Below are positions 6,647 to 58,496 of a DNA stretch of 64,000 nt, one piece after another. The notes under the pieces are model-generated. The model was not told the DNA's origin, searched no databases, and saw only the letters and a program-made list of their open reading frames with translations. The translations under genes and the position numbers were made by a program. Source of the stretch: Simmondsia chinensis (lineage: Eukaryota > Streptophyta > Magnoliopsida > Caryophyllales > Simmondsiaceae); the NCBI GenBank assembly GCA_018398585.1, contig JAGTTD010000012.1, forward strand, positions 19,291,036 to 19,355,035. The letters are read 5' to 3'. Positions within the stretch are counted from its first letter, which is position 1, and each line of letters begins with the position of its first letter.

Positions 6647-7732
6647 CGTATGAACCTGACCCGCACCAGTCCAAACTCCAGTCCAACATGCAGCATCAGC
6701 CCAGCGTAAGCCCACCATCGTCCTCAAAAGCCGCCCCGGACCAAATCACAGCCTCGCTAGGCCCACCGTCATTTTCGACCTCCAGATTTGTCCCATTCAA
6801 TGCAGGCCCATCAACCTCAGCCCACGCTTATCACCAAGCTCACCCGTGACCAAACGCCAGGCCCACTTGCATCCTCCTAAGTCCAAGTCCACACCAGTAC
6901 ACATAAGGTTCAACGAAAGGGAAAGTCGGTTTGGAGAGGAGGATATTTGTTTTGGGGGGTTATGGGGAGACTCGATTTTCGGGAGTTCGGCAGCACCGCC
7001 TGACTCAATTCTCTCTTTTTATTCTTTTTAATTTTACTTTTCGTTAAGTTGGAATGAGAGCGAAATTAGCGTGAAGACTGACATGAGTTTGTTCGTGTCC
7101 TCCTTCACCGGTTAATCATTGATGGAGAGCTAACTTGCTCTCTAGGGTTAGATGAAGTCTTAGTCTCTTTACTTTTGTACTACTTTTAATTTGGGTTAAT
7201 TTGATTGTTTACATGAATTGCTTGGTTGAGATAAATACTTTTAAGTATTGTGTTTTTTATCGTTTATTCAATTGATATGATTATTGTGTTTGCAACCTTT
7301 GATCATTGATGTTGGTATTTTTAAATTAATTCTTTATGCTTATAGCCTTAGGATTAATCAATTAAGTAATAGTATTCACCGAGTTGTTAATTTAAGCTTA
7401 TCTTCTCTATGCTTTAGTTAGGTAGGGTCAATACGTGATAATCAATAATACGTTAGGTTGAGTCTATTTTCCTTATGCTTTAGTTAGATAGGGTCAATAC
7501 GCAATACTAACAACATTACCTTAGTAGGTTGAAGCTTGTAGCCTAAACCACTATCCGTGTGACAATTAATAATCCCAATTTAAGAGTTAACGCAAGAATA
7601 ATTAGCTATGATAGATTCAAAACCTTAGGTTCCAATTTAATACACTCTCTCGCCCTACACTTCAATTTATATGTGTTTAGTAGATAGGGTTTAATATTAA
7701 ATTTTGATTGACGTAGAAAAACACATCAGATA
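6647..7732. other. Unassigned sequence between the copia LTR and the gypsy fragment
   Basis: 6650-7010 is unusually C-rich and GC-rich for the window, rich in CCCA/GCCC words, and holds a short open frame (6846-7031) that I do not recognise. 7040-7730 is AT-rich and has a repeated phrase (TATGCTTTAGTTAG-TAGGGTCAATACG at about 7410 and 7477). No protein motif or LTR boundary was found. It may be a leader of a truncated retroelement. Confidence 0.35.
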
Positions 7733-24084: not shown

Positions 24085-24612
24085 AGACCGACCACTGCTC
24101 CTGTCCGGAGATGCAAATAACTCCATATTACGCACGGGAGAAGAGCTAGAGGCAGGTTAAAGAAGAGTTGGATGGAGACGATTAGACACGATCTCACCCA
24201 CCCAGACCTAAATGAGGTGGTGACCTTAAATAGAGCCAACTGGCAGGTTATAATAGGTGTAGTTGATATAGCGGATTAGAATTGAGGAGCACAACGAATC
24301 TAGTCCGTAGCGTCCTTAGGCTTGCTTGCTTGCTTGTTGGTTGCTTGTTGTGCGCATGCCTATTGTTGCCTTATTATGTTGTGTGCTTTCTGCTTTACCT
24401 TGTGTTTTGCACTTTGTAGATTGCTTTTTGACTGCGCCTTATGTTCCTTTGCTTCTGTAGTTTTTAGGATTGGAGGCACTTAGACATAGCCTACCTTTAG
24501 GGTAGCATCATAAAAGGGTTTAGGCTGCACACATCTCCCCCCCCACTTCCCCTAAAAAAAAAAAAAAAAAAAATCCTACCCTTGTGGCACTGAAATTGAT
24601 GTTGCCAAACAT
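24085..24612 (+). mobile_element. RTE LINE 3' end
   Basis: It matches the 3' part of the LINE at 57860-58329 in order: CTCCATATTACGCACGGGAG, GGAGACGATTAGAC, a GTGTAG-TGATATAG-GGATTAGAAT stretch, then TAGTCCGTAGCGTCC, a TTGCTTG-rich zone, and a tail ending CTTGTGGCACTGAAATTG. An A run at 24555 interrupts the tail. It is part of the RTE family, whose end is shared with the short elements at 30487 and 31121. Confidence 0.72.
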
Positions 24613-29100: not shown

Positions 29101-32100
29101 TCTATAGGCTTCAAGACGTTGAATAGCACAGCTTGACAAAGGTGAAACTGAAGCTCTAAGCCGATGCATGGGAGCTATTCCCGATGCATGTGTTTCAAGT
29201 TCCCAAAGAATTGGTTTGACTGGCTGCTGCTAAGGTGGTATAACACGAACTATCATTCAAGCATGCATACCACTCCTTACGAGGTGGCCTACAGTCAACC
29301 CCCACCAATTCACTTACCTAACTCACACTTCTTCTATTGAACAAGTTGGGCGCAGTCTACAAGCCCAAGCAAAGGCAATCCATGTCCCCAAGCATCACTT
29401 TAATTGGTCCCAAAAATCAAAAGAAGTAGCTCTTGCACAAAAAAAGAAGTGCCAGAAGTTTTAACCAGGGTGTACTTAAAAATTACACTCCTCTAGTCAA
29501 TATTCAATTAAATGTCAATTAATCCAAAAATTGTTTGTTGTTCCCCAAGTATTATGGCCTTCTTAAGGTATTTGACATGGTTAGTCAAGTCGCCTATACT
29601 ATCGAGACCTTCCAGAACAGGCAAGCATTCATCCCACCTTCCATATTTCATTTTTCAAGAAGTTTCATGGACCAACCCGTCGCTGGTTGTACTACCCTAA
29701 GAATTTCACAAGCCCCAATTATCCTTATATCGGACGAGCGGTGCATGGTCAAGTATTGAAACCAGGCCATTGTTAAGGTCCTAGTCAAATGGCAAGGGAA
29801 ACTATCTGAGGAAGCAACTACGGAATATTGAACGAACTTTGGGAACACTTTTCTCATTTCAACCCTCATGGACAAAGATCTCTTGGGGAATGCTGTATTG
29901 TTAACGAATAGCTCAAGAGGAGCTTGAATAAAGCTCAACTCTTAACTCAAATTAAGTAAGTTTGAGTGTTAAAAAATACTCAATTATGTTACTCGACATG
30001 ATATTCGGTTTTCTTGTATTTTTTGACACTTAGCTTTTGAAGCATGTTGAGTATTAATATATTGGTAATTTATGGTTGTTTTTGTTAAAATGTAGTGTAA
30101 ACAATAACAATAATCGAGTACCCAAGTCAAGTAGAACTAATGGTCGAGTATAAAGAACAATGTTATAATGAGCAAATATGATGAACCTTAATATACATTA
30201 TAAAGTGTACTCAAATCGATTTGAGTACTCAAATAGTTAATGGAGTACGAGTTCGAGCAAAATTAAATACTCGTCTCAAGTTCGAGTACCAATATAGTTA
30301 AATGAGTTCGAGTCGAGTACTAAGTTATTTGACTTGACTCGATTACACCCCTAATTGTTACGGCCCATAAATTAACAACCTAGCTCACTTCTAAGAGACA
30401 TCTGTCACAGTGAAGTGTTAAGTCCTGTGACCGGGAACTAGGCTCGGCCCAAGTGCCAATTCCTGGCCTGCTGCAATAGCGAGCAGCAACAACAACAACA
30501 ACAACAACAAACCCAGTGCCTCCAAGGGCTCCCGCATAAGCAGGGTCTGGGGGGGAATAGATGTACGCAGCCTTCCCCCTTTAGGGGGCTACCCTGAAGA
30601 GAGGCTATTTCCGAGGACCCTCAACCTGAGAAGCTGGTCCGCAGCATAGAGCATGTGACCTGGCAGCAGGAGAGCATCAAAGCATGAGTAGGGCAAAACA
30701 CACGGCGAGCAAAACAACAAACTCAAAGCAAGCCACATCAAGAAAAAATCAAAAGATAAGTAGGCAAGTAGAAGCTCATTAGAGTAAGTACACAACCTAA
30801 GTGCGCCAAGAGAATGTCAAGGCATAGCACTAGTAAGCTAGACTACCCTACTCCAACTGGAGCATCTATTACCCCATGCTGCAATAGCAAGCAGTGTTGT
30901 CAAAGGCGTGACACGGCACTAAGGCGCAAAGGCTCCTCGAGCTTGAGGCGCGAGGTGCAGAACTGAGGTGCACGCTTCTCAGATGCGAGGAGCACTTAAT
31001 AACAAAGACCCAATAGTAGCTAATTTGAATTAAATATTTATAAAAGATATTACTTGTAAGATGTATTCCTTTACAACTTAAGTTGCTAGCAAGTGTTGTG
31101 TATTTAAAAAACACATAATCAACAACAACAGACCCAGTGCCTTAAGGGCTCCTGCTTAAGCAGGGTCTGGGGGGTGAATCTATACAGCCTTACCCCTTCA
31201 GGGTGTAACCCTGCCAAGAGTCTATTTTCGATGACCTCCAACCTTATATAGTTGGCAACACGAGGACTTTCCAGGAGGTCACCCATCTTGGTACTTCTCG
31301 CCCAAGCACGCTTAACTTCGGAGTTCTAATGGGATCCGCCACATTAGTGCCTGGTAAATGAATCTTAAAAAACACATAATCGATATCACAAAAAAGAAAA
31401 TATAATAATTTTTATTGGCCATGTATATGATATATGTACACCATTTTTGTATAAAAAAAAAATAAATTATAAAAAATTAAGATAAATTTTTTTAGATTTA
31501 GTAATTTATACATATTAAATTTTAAAGTTAAAAATTTTATAAACATACTTATATTCAAGAAATAATAATGCATCAAAGATATTTGAATCATAAAAAGTAA
31601 TTAATAAAAATGTTAGTGGCAGACAGCCAAGGGACAAAAACTAAGAAACCAAATGCATTGTATTATTATAATATAAAAATGTGAGGGGTTTTAAATATTA
31701 TTTTTCCAAGCGATTGAGGCGCAAGCCTCATTAGCACTATAAAAGCTGGCGCCTCAACGCGACTACTTGCGCCTGCGGGAAAATGAGTGGCTACGGATAT
31801 ATGGAGGCGAGCACAGCAGCGCCTATTGCGCCTCAGGCGCATTTGAAGCGCGATTTTAACAACACTGATAGCAAGCTCGCACAGATCTCTCCAAGTGGCG
31901 CACCTCTGCTAAAATTGGGAGGAAGGCACATCGTAGCACACATGCGCAAAATTAGAACGAAGGAAGAAGAAGATCGGCCACGGAGGTGACACTAGAATAC
32001 AAGAATTGATTCTCTCAAGATTTTCCTCGTTTTTAAATGCTTTTTGTCTTGCCTAGCCTGGCTATTTACAGCCATGATTGTAAGTGGAGAAATCTACTAA

Positions 32101-38989: not shown

Positions 38990-40140
38990 TTTCAGTGACA
39001 TTTTTAAGCTTAATTTACTAAAGTTATTTACCAACTTCACGCGTTTACAAAAAAAAAAAAAAAAAAAAAATTACCAAAGTGGCACCATTGCAAAAATATT
39101 TACCAAAAGGCACCATTTACTGTAGCATACTCAACGTACGCCATTTGAAACGGCGTGTGCCCGTCGTTAATCACCATACTCTGTTTCTAACGGCGTACGG
39201 TGAACAGTAATTTTTTAAATTATTTTTATTTTTTTTATGGAAGCACGGCTAATTTGTATTTTAAAAATTATTGCATTAAAACTATTGTAATAAATAATTT
39301 AAAATTTTAATAATTTTTAAATTTGTTTAAGGAAGTGTATTAACTTCGTCATAACAGTATATGTTGCTTGGGTACTCAGAAACAGCCTCTATTCAGCGTA
39401 GCACCCTAAGGAGAGAAGGATGAGTACATCCACCCCTTTAGGCCCTACATAGGCGGGAGCCCTTGGGGCACTGAGAATGTATGTTGCTTTCTATTTATTA
39501 TATTTAATATATTGAATAATAACGATAATATATAAAGGTCATTTCATCATTTAGGTACTCGTTAAATTTTTATTGAACCAATATTACATAAATAAAAATT
39601 ATGCATTACTTTTTGGATGAAAACATAAATGGTGAAAGTTTTGAAAAATGATATTATACATAGTAAGGGCAACATACTTTGCAAAAATGACCAAGAAGAA
39701 AAATATTATTTAGAAAAGGACCATGAAAGGTATCAACTATTTATAAGTGACCAGGATAATTACTCAAAAAAATAACGTGACATCCAAAAAGAATATGTAG
39801 TAGATAACATGACAATCAAAAATATGACACATATAATGCTATGACGAAGTTAATATACTTTCTTAAAAAAAATTTTAAAAATTATTAGAATTTTAAATTA
39901 TTTATTAGAATAGTTTTAATGCAATAATTTTAGCAGTGCTTCTGTAAAAAAAAAATTAGTGTTCACCGTACATCGTTAGAAATGGCATACGATGATCAAC
40001 GACGGGTGTACGCCGTTTCAAACGGCGTACTTTGAGTATGCTACAGTAAATGGTGGCATTTTGGTAAATATTTTTACAATGGTACCATTTTGGTAATTTT
40101 TTTTGAAAAGGTGCCAAGTTGGTAAAAAAATTCATAGGTT
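38990..40140. mobile_element. Foldback-type element with long terminal inverted repeats
   Basis: The left arm (about 39020-39365) is the reverse complement of the right arm (about 39800-40130) over most of its length, including CATTTACTGTAGCATACTCA, the AAACGGCGT phrase and ATTAACTTCGTCATA. A direct repeat TAAAATATTTTTT at about 38973 and 40141 may be the target duplication. The centre contains the short retroposed insert at 39370. Arms of this length are seen in MULEs and foldback elements; no transposase lies between the arms. Confidence 0.75.
39370..39479 (+). mobile_element. Short SINE/LINE tail insert
   Basis: The sequence ACAGCCTCTATTCAGCGTAG...TAGGCCCTACATAGGCGGGA...GGGCACTGAGAATG matches the shared RTE/SINE 3' end. 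TATGTTGCTT on both sides (39360-39369 and 39480-39489) is the likely target duplication. It is 5' truncated and sits at the inner edge of the left arm of the foldback element. Confidence 0.68.
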
Positions 40141-55550: not shown

Positions 55551-58496
55551 GACACCCCCTTTTTTTTTTTTTTTTGAGGCCAGGCCCGTGCCTTGTTCAG
55601 CACCAACCCGCATGCGAGGCCGGGTATTCTTCTCCACTTTTTTTGTTAAAAAAAACACAATGTAATTTATCATATTAAATACTCATCTCATGAACATTTG
55701 TTTAGCATAAAAATTTATTTATAAATAAAGAATTCATCTCATGAATTCATTTCTAAATATTCTCAAACAATGCTTAACTTGAGGCTTGCGAAGGAACCTC
55801 ATGGACAATCTAACTCTAGTTCCAAATGGGTTAAATCTGATTATCATGTCATGATAACAATTGATTACCATTTAGTAAAGCTTAATTCTACTAAATAAGT
55901 TCTACTGCACTCTAAAATTAAATATATTCATCCAAAAATTTCCCAAATAACTTTTATTACAACAATTAACTCATATATTAGATATACGTGAGCAAAAGTA
56001 ACTTTAACTTCTATCGTAATTTTTCTTACATCTCTCTTGTAGTTCCCAACTCGCCCTCTTGAACAATTCAATAACACAGAAATAATTTTCGTATTAATTC
56101 CAAATATCAAACATATGAAATACTTTAGCCAAAGATTCTAGAATTTGTTCGTATATTTGTGAATTAATTAAGGGGACATCTTTATCTCGTTAGAGATTAT
56201 AGATTCCACGTAAAAAAAATGTTCCCGCTACACTTCATGTTGTTCCCCAATGTATGTAAGATTCAAATCAATTCCCTTTGACTAATCCTTTTGGCACATC
56301 AAAGCAACAAACTATCCATGCACGAGTTCAGTCTGTTTCCAGGATTTAGAGCTATCGTATGAGATAATTATTTATTTTTGATAGCAGTTAAAGAAACAAC
56401 TAATTCATATAGTCTTGCTAATTGTTCCAATCTTATTGATAACACCAACATGATACTCTTGGATCCCTATTCATATGACCAAGACAAATCATCAAAAGTA
56501 TCATATTATAGTCTTATCAGATAAGTTGTCCAAACTTATCACCGATTATGAATATTATCTAAGTCTATCTGTGGTTCAATCTCATTGATCACTTAAGCCA
56601 AACTGGAATGTGATCTTGGACTACATCCATCTCATGGAACATTTTAGAAAACAATCACATGTATATTTGACTCGTAAAATATAATCAAACAATAAAAAAA
56701 ATAAAACAATTTTATTTATTTAATATTTAAAATCTAACTAATTTGGTTTTTAAGACACCCATTCCAATAGTAAGAAGATGCCTAACAAGTGGAATAAGAG
56801 CATATTGACATCGATTTATAAGAGCAAAAGCGACATTCAGAGCGTGCCAACTATATGATATGAAACTAATGAGCCACACTATGAAGCTATGGGAGTGGGT
56901 CATAGAAAGAGGGCTACAACAACAAATGGGCGCCTCAGAGAACCAATTTAGATTTATGCAGGGTATAGATCTATGATAGAAGTCGCCCTTCTGCTAGGGC
57001 ATACTATAAAGTATTACAGAGTTAGACAAAAGAGCCTATACATGGTTTTCATCAACTTGGAGAAGGCATATGATTGAGAGTCAAAGAAAGGTCATATGGA
57101 AGATCTTGGAGAACAAAGGCATCCTAGTATCATATATTCGAGCCACTAAAGACATGTATGAGGATGTATGGACCAATGTGCGTACAACGGAAGGGGAGAC
57201 AGACGATTTCCCGATTACAGTCGGTGTACATTAAGGATTAGCCTTGAGTCCCTTCTTGTTTATTCCGGTTATGGACGAGCTCACTAGGCACAACCAAGAG
57301 GGTGTGCCTTGGTGCATGCTTTCCGCGGATAATATAGTATTGGCAGGCAAGTTATGGAGAAGGGCCTTGGAATTGAAAGGCTTACAGCTCTGTAGTTTTA
57401 AAACCAGTATATAAAATTTAAGTTCTATATCTCAATCAGACCAAGGATAGATGATGTGAAGATTGGGTTGGAATGCATAATGAAAAAGAATGCTTCAGAT
57501 ATTCGGGATCCGTGGTGCAATAGGACGGCAAAGTTGACGAAGATTAGCAACCGGATTAAAGTAGAATGGCATAAGTGGAAAATGGCTTGACAGAAAGTTC
57601 TGAATAAAATTGAATGGAAAATACTATAAGACAGTAGTTAGACCGGCTATGTCATACGGTGCAGAGTTCGAGCCAGTTAAACGGCAACACTTGTAAAAGT
57701 TGAAGGTGGTAGAGATGAGGATGTTGCGGTGGATGTGTGGACACATGAGGAACCATAAGATAAAAAATGACATTATATGGTCCCAATCAAAGATAAATTA
57801 AGGGAACAACGTCTGCAACGGTTTGGCCATGTTATGAGGGGACCAACCCTTGCCCTTATCAGAAGATGCGAACGACTCCATATTACGCATGGGAAGAGAG
57901 GGAAAGACGGGCCAAAGAAGAGCTGAATGGAGACAATTAGACATAAGCTCATCCACCTAAACTGAAAAGAAGGGATGGCCTTAGATAGAGATGAGTGGCA
58001 AGTTAGAATAAGTGTAGCTACATGGCGGTTTAGGATAGAGGAGCATAAGGAAGCTAGTCCATAGCATCCCTAGGCTTACATGTTTGCTATTGTTGATTGT
58101 TGCTTGTGCACATTATTGTTATTCTATTGTTTCTTTGTGCTTTGTGTTATGCTGCTTGTTTATTATTATTATTATTATTTTGTTTTTGCTACTAAGCTTT
58201 TTAGGGTTGGGCCCTCGGATATAACCTTCCTTTAAGGTAATACCCCGAAGAGGTAAGGCTATGTATATCTTAGCCCCTCTAGGCCCAACTATGGTGGGAG
58301 CCCTTGTGGCATTGAAATTGTTGTTGTTATAAAAATATAAATTATACATATTATATAGATATAAACATTATTTAGTGTCAACTAAATATATAATAATGCT
58401 ATATTAGTTTAATATTATTATTATAATATTTTTAAAAATATAATGTTAATTTATGTATGCTAATATATATAAATTATGCATATTATATAATTTTAT

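Follow-up and report, generated by a model that had tools for sequence, protein, structure and literature searches.

Within the window, by which we mean the whole stretch of 64,000 nucleotides analyzed here, a sequence closely related to 5S rRNA is joined to one resembling the 3′ end of a LINE, and the two together are bracketed by a direct repeat. What kind of element is this, and is it a single accident or one member of a family? The component parts of the locus, together with the neighboring copy of the LINE to which it is related, are as follows.

31121-31364, minus strand: SINE insert of 244 bp, flanked by two identical copies of GATTATGTGTTTTTTAA
31365-31381, minus strand: 5′ copy of the target-site duplication (TSD), 17 bp, the same sequence as 31104-31120
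31104-31120, minus strand: 3′ copy of the TSD, identical to 31365-31381 at 17/17 positions
31251-31364, minus strand: 5S rRNA head, from the Rfam RF00001 match and alignment to the host 5S gene
31302-31318, minus strand: putative box A region, AAGTTAAGCGTGCTTGG, the same as the family consensus
31296-31301, minus strand: putative intermediate element region, GCGAGA
31270-31289, minus strand: putative box C region, AAGATGGGTGACCTCCTGGA, compared with AGGATGGGTGACCTCCTGGG in the consensus
31245-31250, minus strand: linker between the 5S part and the LINE-like tail, TATATA; CTATA-type in the family consensus
31121-31244, minus strand: LINE-derived tail with terminal TTG repeats, 79.7% identical over 128 bases to 30627-30500
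30487-30876, minus strand: 3′-end portion of the partner LINE, truncated on its 5′ side, from the search and its upstream continuation

An earlier note on this DNA had described a near full-length 5S sequence starting at the first base of the insert, a perfect 17-bp direct repeat around the unit and a terminus of TTG repeats, and all three descriptions are accurate. The Rfam 5S_rRNA model matches 31360-31255 on the minus strand with a score of 58.6 bits (gathering score 38, E = 1e-9), extending over model positions 1-120 of 120. This is the sole Rfam match above the gathering score in the 64-kb window, and no tRNA was detected there. Alignment of the head with the host 5S gene gives 101 matches, 12 mismatches and 7 gap columns. 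We presume that the limits of box A, the intermediate element and box C lie at the positions listed above; the window copy has a 2-base deletion just 3′ of the intermediate element region. The 5S part ends at ~31251 and is followed by a linker of ~6 bases, with the LINE-like tail running from ~31244, and thus the previous placement of the junction near 31253 was off by no more than a few bases. The 5′ end of the insert has a one-base alternative placement relative to the family consensus (GGGTTC, compared with GATTC in the window copy).

The host genome provides a direct reference for the head. Twenty genes of the host 5S array (L029-L048) are identical among themselves, and the consensus head derived from 28 copies of the element is identical to the host gene at 110 of 121 columns, with 7 mismatches and 4 gap columns. 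The consensus therefore has a 5S-derived head at its 5′ end, as in SINE3 elements, and it contains the boxes A, IE and C that also characterize that class, here putative by sequence. The SINE head stops at the point where the terminator of the 5S gene would start; TTTTT follows the gene directly in the three array genes for which the flank was examined. When 20 loci were analyzed with Rfam there were ten 5S matches above the gathering score, all on SINE heads, three of them being further copies of the SINE in the flanks. Every seed head included in this analysis was matched.

The canonical C-box core is given as AGGATGGGTG in a passage of PMC10853983. The C-box of the host 5S gene departs from this (AAGATGGGTGACCTCTTGG / AAGATGGGTG), whereas the SINE consensus keeps the canonical core, and a gene-like A is found at the variant position in 11 of the 28 copies. 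Since the canonical sequence is present in the consensus and has been departed from in the host gene, the head may derive from an earlier or different state of the 5S gene. Conservation of the promoter boxes was considered as a line of evidence and dropped. Variation among the 28 copies is 7.0% in box C, 5.5% in the whole head and 3.6% in box A, and promoter conservation lacks support because box C is no less variable than the remainder of the head. Two further features can be seen by eye. An inverted repeat, CCAACC-CTATAA-GGTTGG, spans the junction of the long-family consensus (the family of the window copy), and the GGGTT that opens the consensus could form base pairs with the AACCC that closes the head, possibly restoring helix I of 5S RNA.

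The tail had been matched previously to a LINE at 58200-58329. That similarity is genuine though weak (71% identity across 93 bases, E = 6.8e-6), and a better relative lies at 30627-30500 on the minus strand, just 500 bases away (E = 1.6e-26). This falls within the truncated partner LINE copy, which is itself bracketed by 18-bp repeats at 30877-30894 and 30469-30486 having one mismatch as judged by eye. Searching with this copy gave 40 scored candidates, all with at least 90% identity and including the window copy, and of 12 loci that were fetched, 11 stay similar further upstream. The idea that 30490-30880 might represent a separate non-autonomous family was withdrawn, because those 11 loci extend upstream into LINE sequence. 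Several of the partner LINE loci carry long reverse transcriptase frames; that of L057 comprises 438 codons and matches RVT_1 with E = 9.7e-31. Pfam reverse transcriptase domains were found in three frames of the LINE relatives, one of them below the curated cut-off, while five LINE frames at 56809-57923 in the window gave no Pfam reverse transcriptase match. Comparison of the consensus tail of the SINE with the 3′ end of the LINE consensus shows identity at 114 of 126 columns. Thus the SINE has its 3′ end in common with a LINE of the same genome, one that includes RVT_1, as expected of SINEs.

Relatives of the protein encoded by L057:1-1314 were compared. Among the best 120 of 2,939, those from named plants (Malus, Glycine, Lycium, Zea and others) are mostly 58-65% identical. 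In the data given in PMC3747384, all seven plant RTE families have TTG-type repeats, compared with 0 of 233 plant L1 families. Taken with the RVT_1 match and the plant relatives, the TTG tail makes it likely that the partner LINE belongs to the RTE clade. Decayed LINE copies are also present in the window at 56809-58329 and 24300-24604, ending in or near TTG-type tails. The top-scoring relative of L057, again among the best 120 of 2,939, is a protein of the catfish Hemibagrus guttatus, with 51% identity, which scores higher than plant proteins of 65% identity. The tail of the 5S-headed SINE may resemble the Angio-domain. The SINE superfamily of that name is described as having a conserved 37-bp 3′ domain (PMC9033089).

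Is this arrangement confined to the window? The genome from which it comes comprises 831,394,711 bases in 35 contigs. It also includes decayed plastid matK insertions (L093-L095) whose best match is Simmondsia chinensis (Caryophyllales); one is 90% identical to that species over 98% of the region (367 bits, compared with 273 bits for the next match), and a second is identical at 178 of 196 residues. Jojoba is on these grounds the probable host. The 20-base junction sequence GTGTTGCCAACCCTATAAGG, allowing up to two mismatches, is found at 6,694 sites in the genome, divided between the two strands as 3,459 and 3,235, compared with just 3 (1 and 2 by strand) for the reversed pattern. The figure of 6,694 leaves out a second 5S-headed family, discussed below, as well as copies with more than two changes at the junction. 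A genome search using the whole unit gave 5,853 first-look candidates, of which 40 were scored, comprising the window copy and 39 others. All 40 cross the junction between 5S and tail, with E values of 2.9e-77 or better, and the 39 are 85-90% identical to the window unit. A set of 28 copies, picked for likeness to the window copy, diverge from the consensus by 3.3-13.3%, the median being 6.1%. The consensus is ~248 bp in length, begins with GGG and ends in TTG repeats. In being short, dispersed and present in many copies the family has the general character of a SINE. The exact junction was found in none of the bacterial and archaeal genome contigs and in none of the viral contigs searched.

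The insertions can be distinguished by their duplicated targets. Locus L067 has the same flanks as L066 and was left out, giving 39 independent insertions. Of these, 26 have a TSD of their own, each with a score that none of 1,482 mismatched flank pairs reaches, the maximum among those pairs being 10; the repeat around the window insert scores 17. In the other 13 no flank repeat exceeds that maximum. The 26 TSDs are 13-24 bp in length with a median of 18; ten are perfect, and there are 22 mismatches in a total of 469 positions. If L067 is kept the null becomes inflated, whereupon 1 of 40 copies lies above the null maximum and 28 of 40 above the 99% point.

Sampling in map order avoids selection by likeness to the window. 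The first 30 exact junction sites were taken, all on contig 1, and all 30 retain the 5S head, in whole or in part, attached to the tail; 20 are of full length. TSDs score above the 99% point of the null in 12 of the 30 and above its maximum of 13 in seven, leaving 18 with no TSD above the 99% point. One extra 5S-headed copy was found within the 90.6 kb of these loci. A random sample of 20 segments of 2 kb contained three matches to the consensus, of which one is 5S-headed, and there were no consensus matches in the flanks of 11 LINE loci. These small samples agree with a family numbering in the thousands or tens of thousands.

The earlier note had read the insert as a plant 5S-headed SINE, and had asked for additional copies that preserve the junction and have separate target duplications. 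The 6,694 sites and the 26 duplicated targets provide these, with all 40 scored candidates spanning the junction, and that reading is upheld. We conclude with high confidence that the insert is a 5S rRNA-headed SINE with the tail of an RTE-type LINE, belonging to a high-copy family that has presumably been amplified via the LINE machinery.

Other explanations have been weighed against this. The earlier note offered a one-off event, in which a single switch between LINE RNA and 5S RNA generated a lone pseudogene without descendants. The junction does resemble that of a template switch, and in the window just one of five copies of the tail bears a 5S head; yet a junction that recurs at thousands of sites, compared with 3 for the control, in insertions of which 26 of 39 have their own TSD, is not that of a lone pseudogene, and we consider this origin of the insert highly improbable. 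A template switch remains the likely origin of the family. The same note named a Cassandra-type LTR with TG...CA ends as another possible source of the head; in such elements the 5S sequence lies inside the LTR. Cassandra makes a target duplication of 5 bp, whereas the duplications here are 13-24 bp, the unit starts with GGG and finishes in TTG repeats, and its tail is the 3′ end of a LINE. Cassandra elements are indeed described as widespread in vascular plants, with a 5S region in their LTRs (PMC10853983, PMC7215508), but according to section 14 of PMC10853983 the 5S sequence is never at the LTR ends, while here it starts at the first base of the unit. There is hardly any likelihood that the head belongs to such an element.

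Alternatively the 5S head, instead of being fused straight to LINE RNA, might have displaced a tRNA head on a pre-existing SINE that already carried this tail, a scheme put forward for HaSE3 in Helicoverpa (PMC3272025). RTE-type TTG tails do occur on tRNA-headed SINEs of plants, such as TS of tobacco as described in PMC3747384, and there are many tail-only fragments that have no 5S head. Against this, ARAGORN found no tRNA upstream of eight headless tails, a small sample from which degenerate heads would escape, nor any in the window, and the tail consensus agrees with that of the LINE at 114 of 126 columns. We regard replacement of the head as unlikely. A tRNA-headed plant SINE with boxes A and B was also considered as a classification of the insert itself and rejected, the head being 5S.

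The genome also has a second 5S-headed family, which is shorter and more diverged. It is represented by L075:136-332 (minus strand), a copy that came from the random sample and differs from the long family, and by six further copies that were fetched (L126-L131), which have the features of L075 with small variations. There are extra bases 5′ of the head (ACCTAAAA in L075, ACCTAAGA in other copies), and ~8 bases have been lost near the start of the head. The junction is GTGTTGCACCC(C)TCAGG, the body is shorter, and the 3′ end lies near GAATGTTGC. Using L075 as a genome query gave at least 39 other places that match across the junction with 78-85% identity, together with one partial match, and in five of the seven copies, L075 included, the TSDs score above all 42 mismatched pairs. 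The junctions of the two families differ, GTGTTGCCAACCC-TATA-AGGTTGG in the long family and GTGTTGCACCCC-TCAGGTTGG in the short one, and both would represent joins to the 3′ end of 5S RNA. A tail-only insert of ~115 bases is found in the window at 39370-39486 between two TATGTTGCTT repeats, with a terminus like that of the second family.

How might such an element be propagated? Polymerase III and the 5S factors would transcribe it from its first base using the internal 5S promoter, and transcription would pass through the tail to end at an external T-run. Reading through beyond the head would be possible because the fusion removed the 5S terminator. That the consensus has no TTTT was dropped as evidence for read-through, since 1,039 of 2,000 dinucleotide shuffles contain TTTT and 961 are without it. 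The reverse transcriptase of the RTE-type LINE would then recognize the tail and its TTG end, and copy the RNA at a nicked target by target-primed reverse transcription; it is the tail common to SINE and LINE that points to this enzyme. Integration would leave a duplication of ~18 bp, and duplications of this kind are observed. The amplification of the family and its near-intact 5S head suggest that the polymerase III promoter was active at the time of insertion. The family itself probably originated in a template switch, in which the LINE enzyme, while copying the terminus of its own RNA, jumped to the 3′ end of a 5S RNA; the junction lies just where the 5S sequence stops, which suggests such a switch.

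The long family is a high-copy plant 5S-headed SINE, a member of SINE3 in a kingdom for which the literature found has only tRNA heads. The passages available describe 5S SINEs in fish, mammals and insects (PMC3272025, PMC8010984), and 5S-related SINEs have been claimed in Aspergillus (PMC5063351); PMC10853983 gives SINEs in animals as its example, and plant SINEs are treated as tRNA-derived in a 2022 review (PMC9033089). No plant 5S SINE was found in the literature searched; subscription papers, Repbase and Dfam lay outside that search, and priority is hence not established. The presence of thousands of copies in a single plant genome shows that plants, too, are able to assemble 5S SINEs with RTE-type tails and to multiply them. 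A likely reason for their being overlooked lies in the plant SINE pipeline outlined in PMC8825457, which looks for tRNA boxes in its structural step and discards any candidate that is almost the same as an RNA in Rfam. There is a converse warning for annotation, in that SINE heads can be counted as 5S genes because they exceed the Rfam 5S threshold.

It has been suggested that Cassandra arose from a SINE3 element inserted into an LTR (PMC10886601), and the plant 5S SINEs are the kind of element postulated there as the source of its 5S promoter. That the same LINE machinery of the plant took up 5S RNA on separate occasions, in two births corresponding to the two families, and that plant 5S SINEs were in addition the promoter donor of Cassandra, is a combined proposal that we put forward tentatively, and think rather less probable than not.

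The architecture can be compared with several known systems, in so far as these are described in the sources cited. Ped-1 of the springhare likewise has a 5S head and the 3′ end of an RTE-clade LINE, in the form of a BovB tail (PMC3747384). It is a mammalian element of presumed separate origin, and the likeness is one of described architecture. HaSE3 of Helicoverpa and PxSE4 and PxSE5 of Plutella also have 5S heads with boxes A, IE and C, and the tail of HaSE3 is common to HaSE1, whose tail resembles an RTE LINE (PMC3272025, PMC8010984). These are insect elements, and the heads of PxSE4 and PxSE5 are ~63% identical to 5S rRNA compared with 110 of 121 columns here. Thus the plant element has the same build as that of the springhare (PMC3747384) and, via a shared tail, of a moth (PMC3272025). 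Within plants, TS of tobacco shares with it a 3′ end of ~100 bases in common with an RTE LINE and the TTG repeats, but has a tRNA head in place of 5S (PMC3747384). Cassandra is likewise a plant mobile element that uses 5S sequence, but it is a non-autonomous LTR retrotransposon with the 5S inside the LTR (PMC10853983), and not a LINE-tailed SINE of the kind found here.
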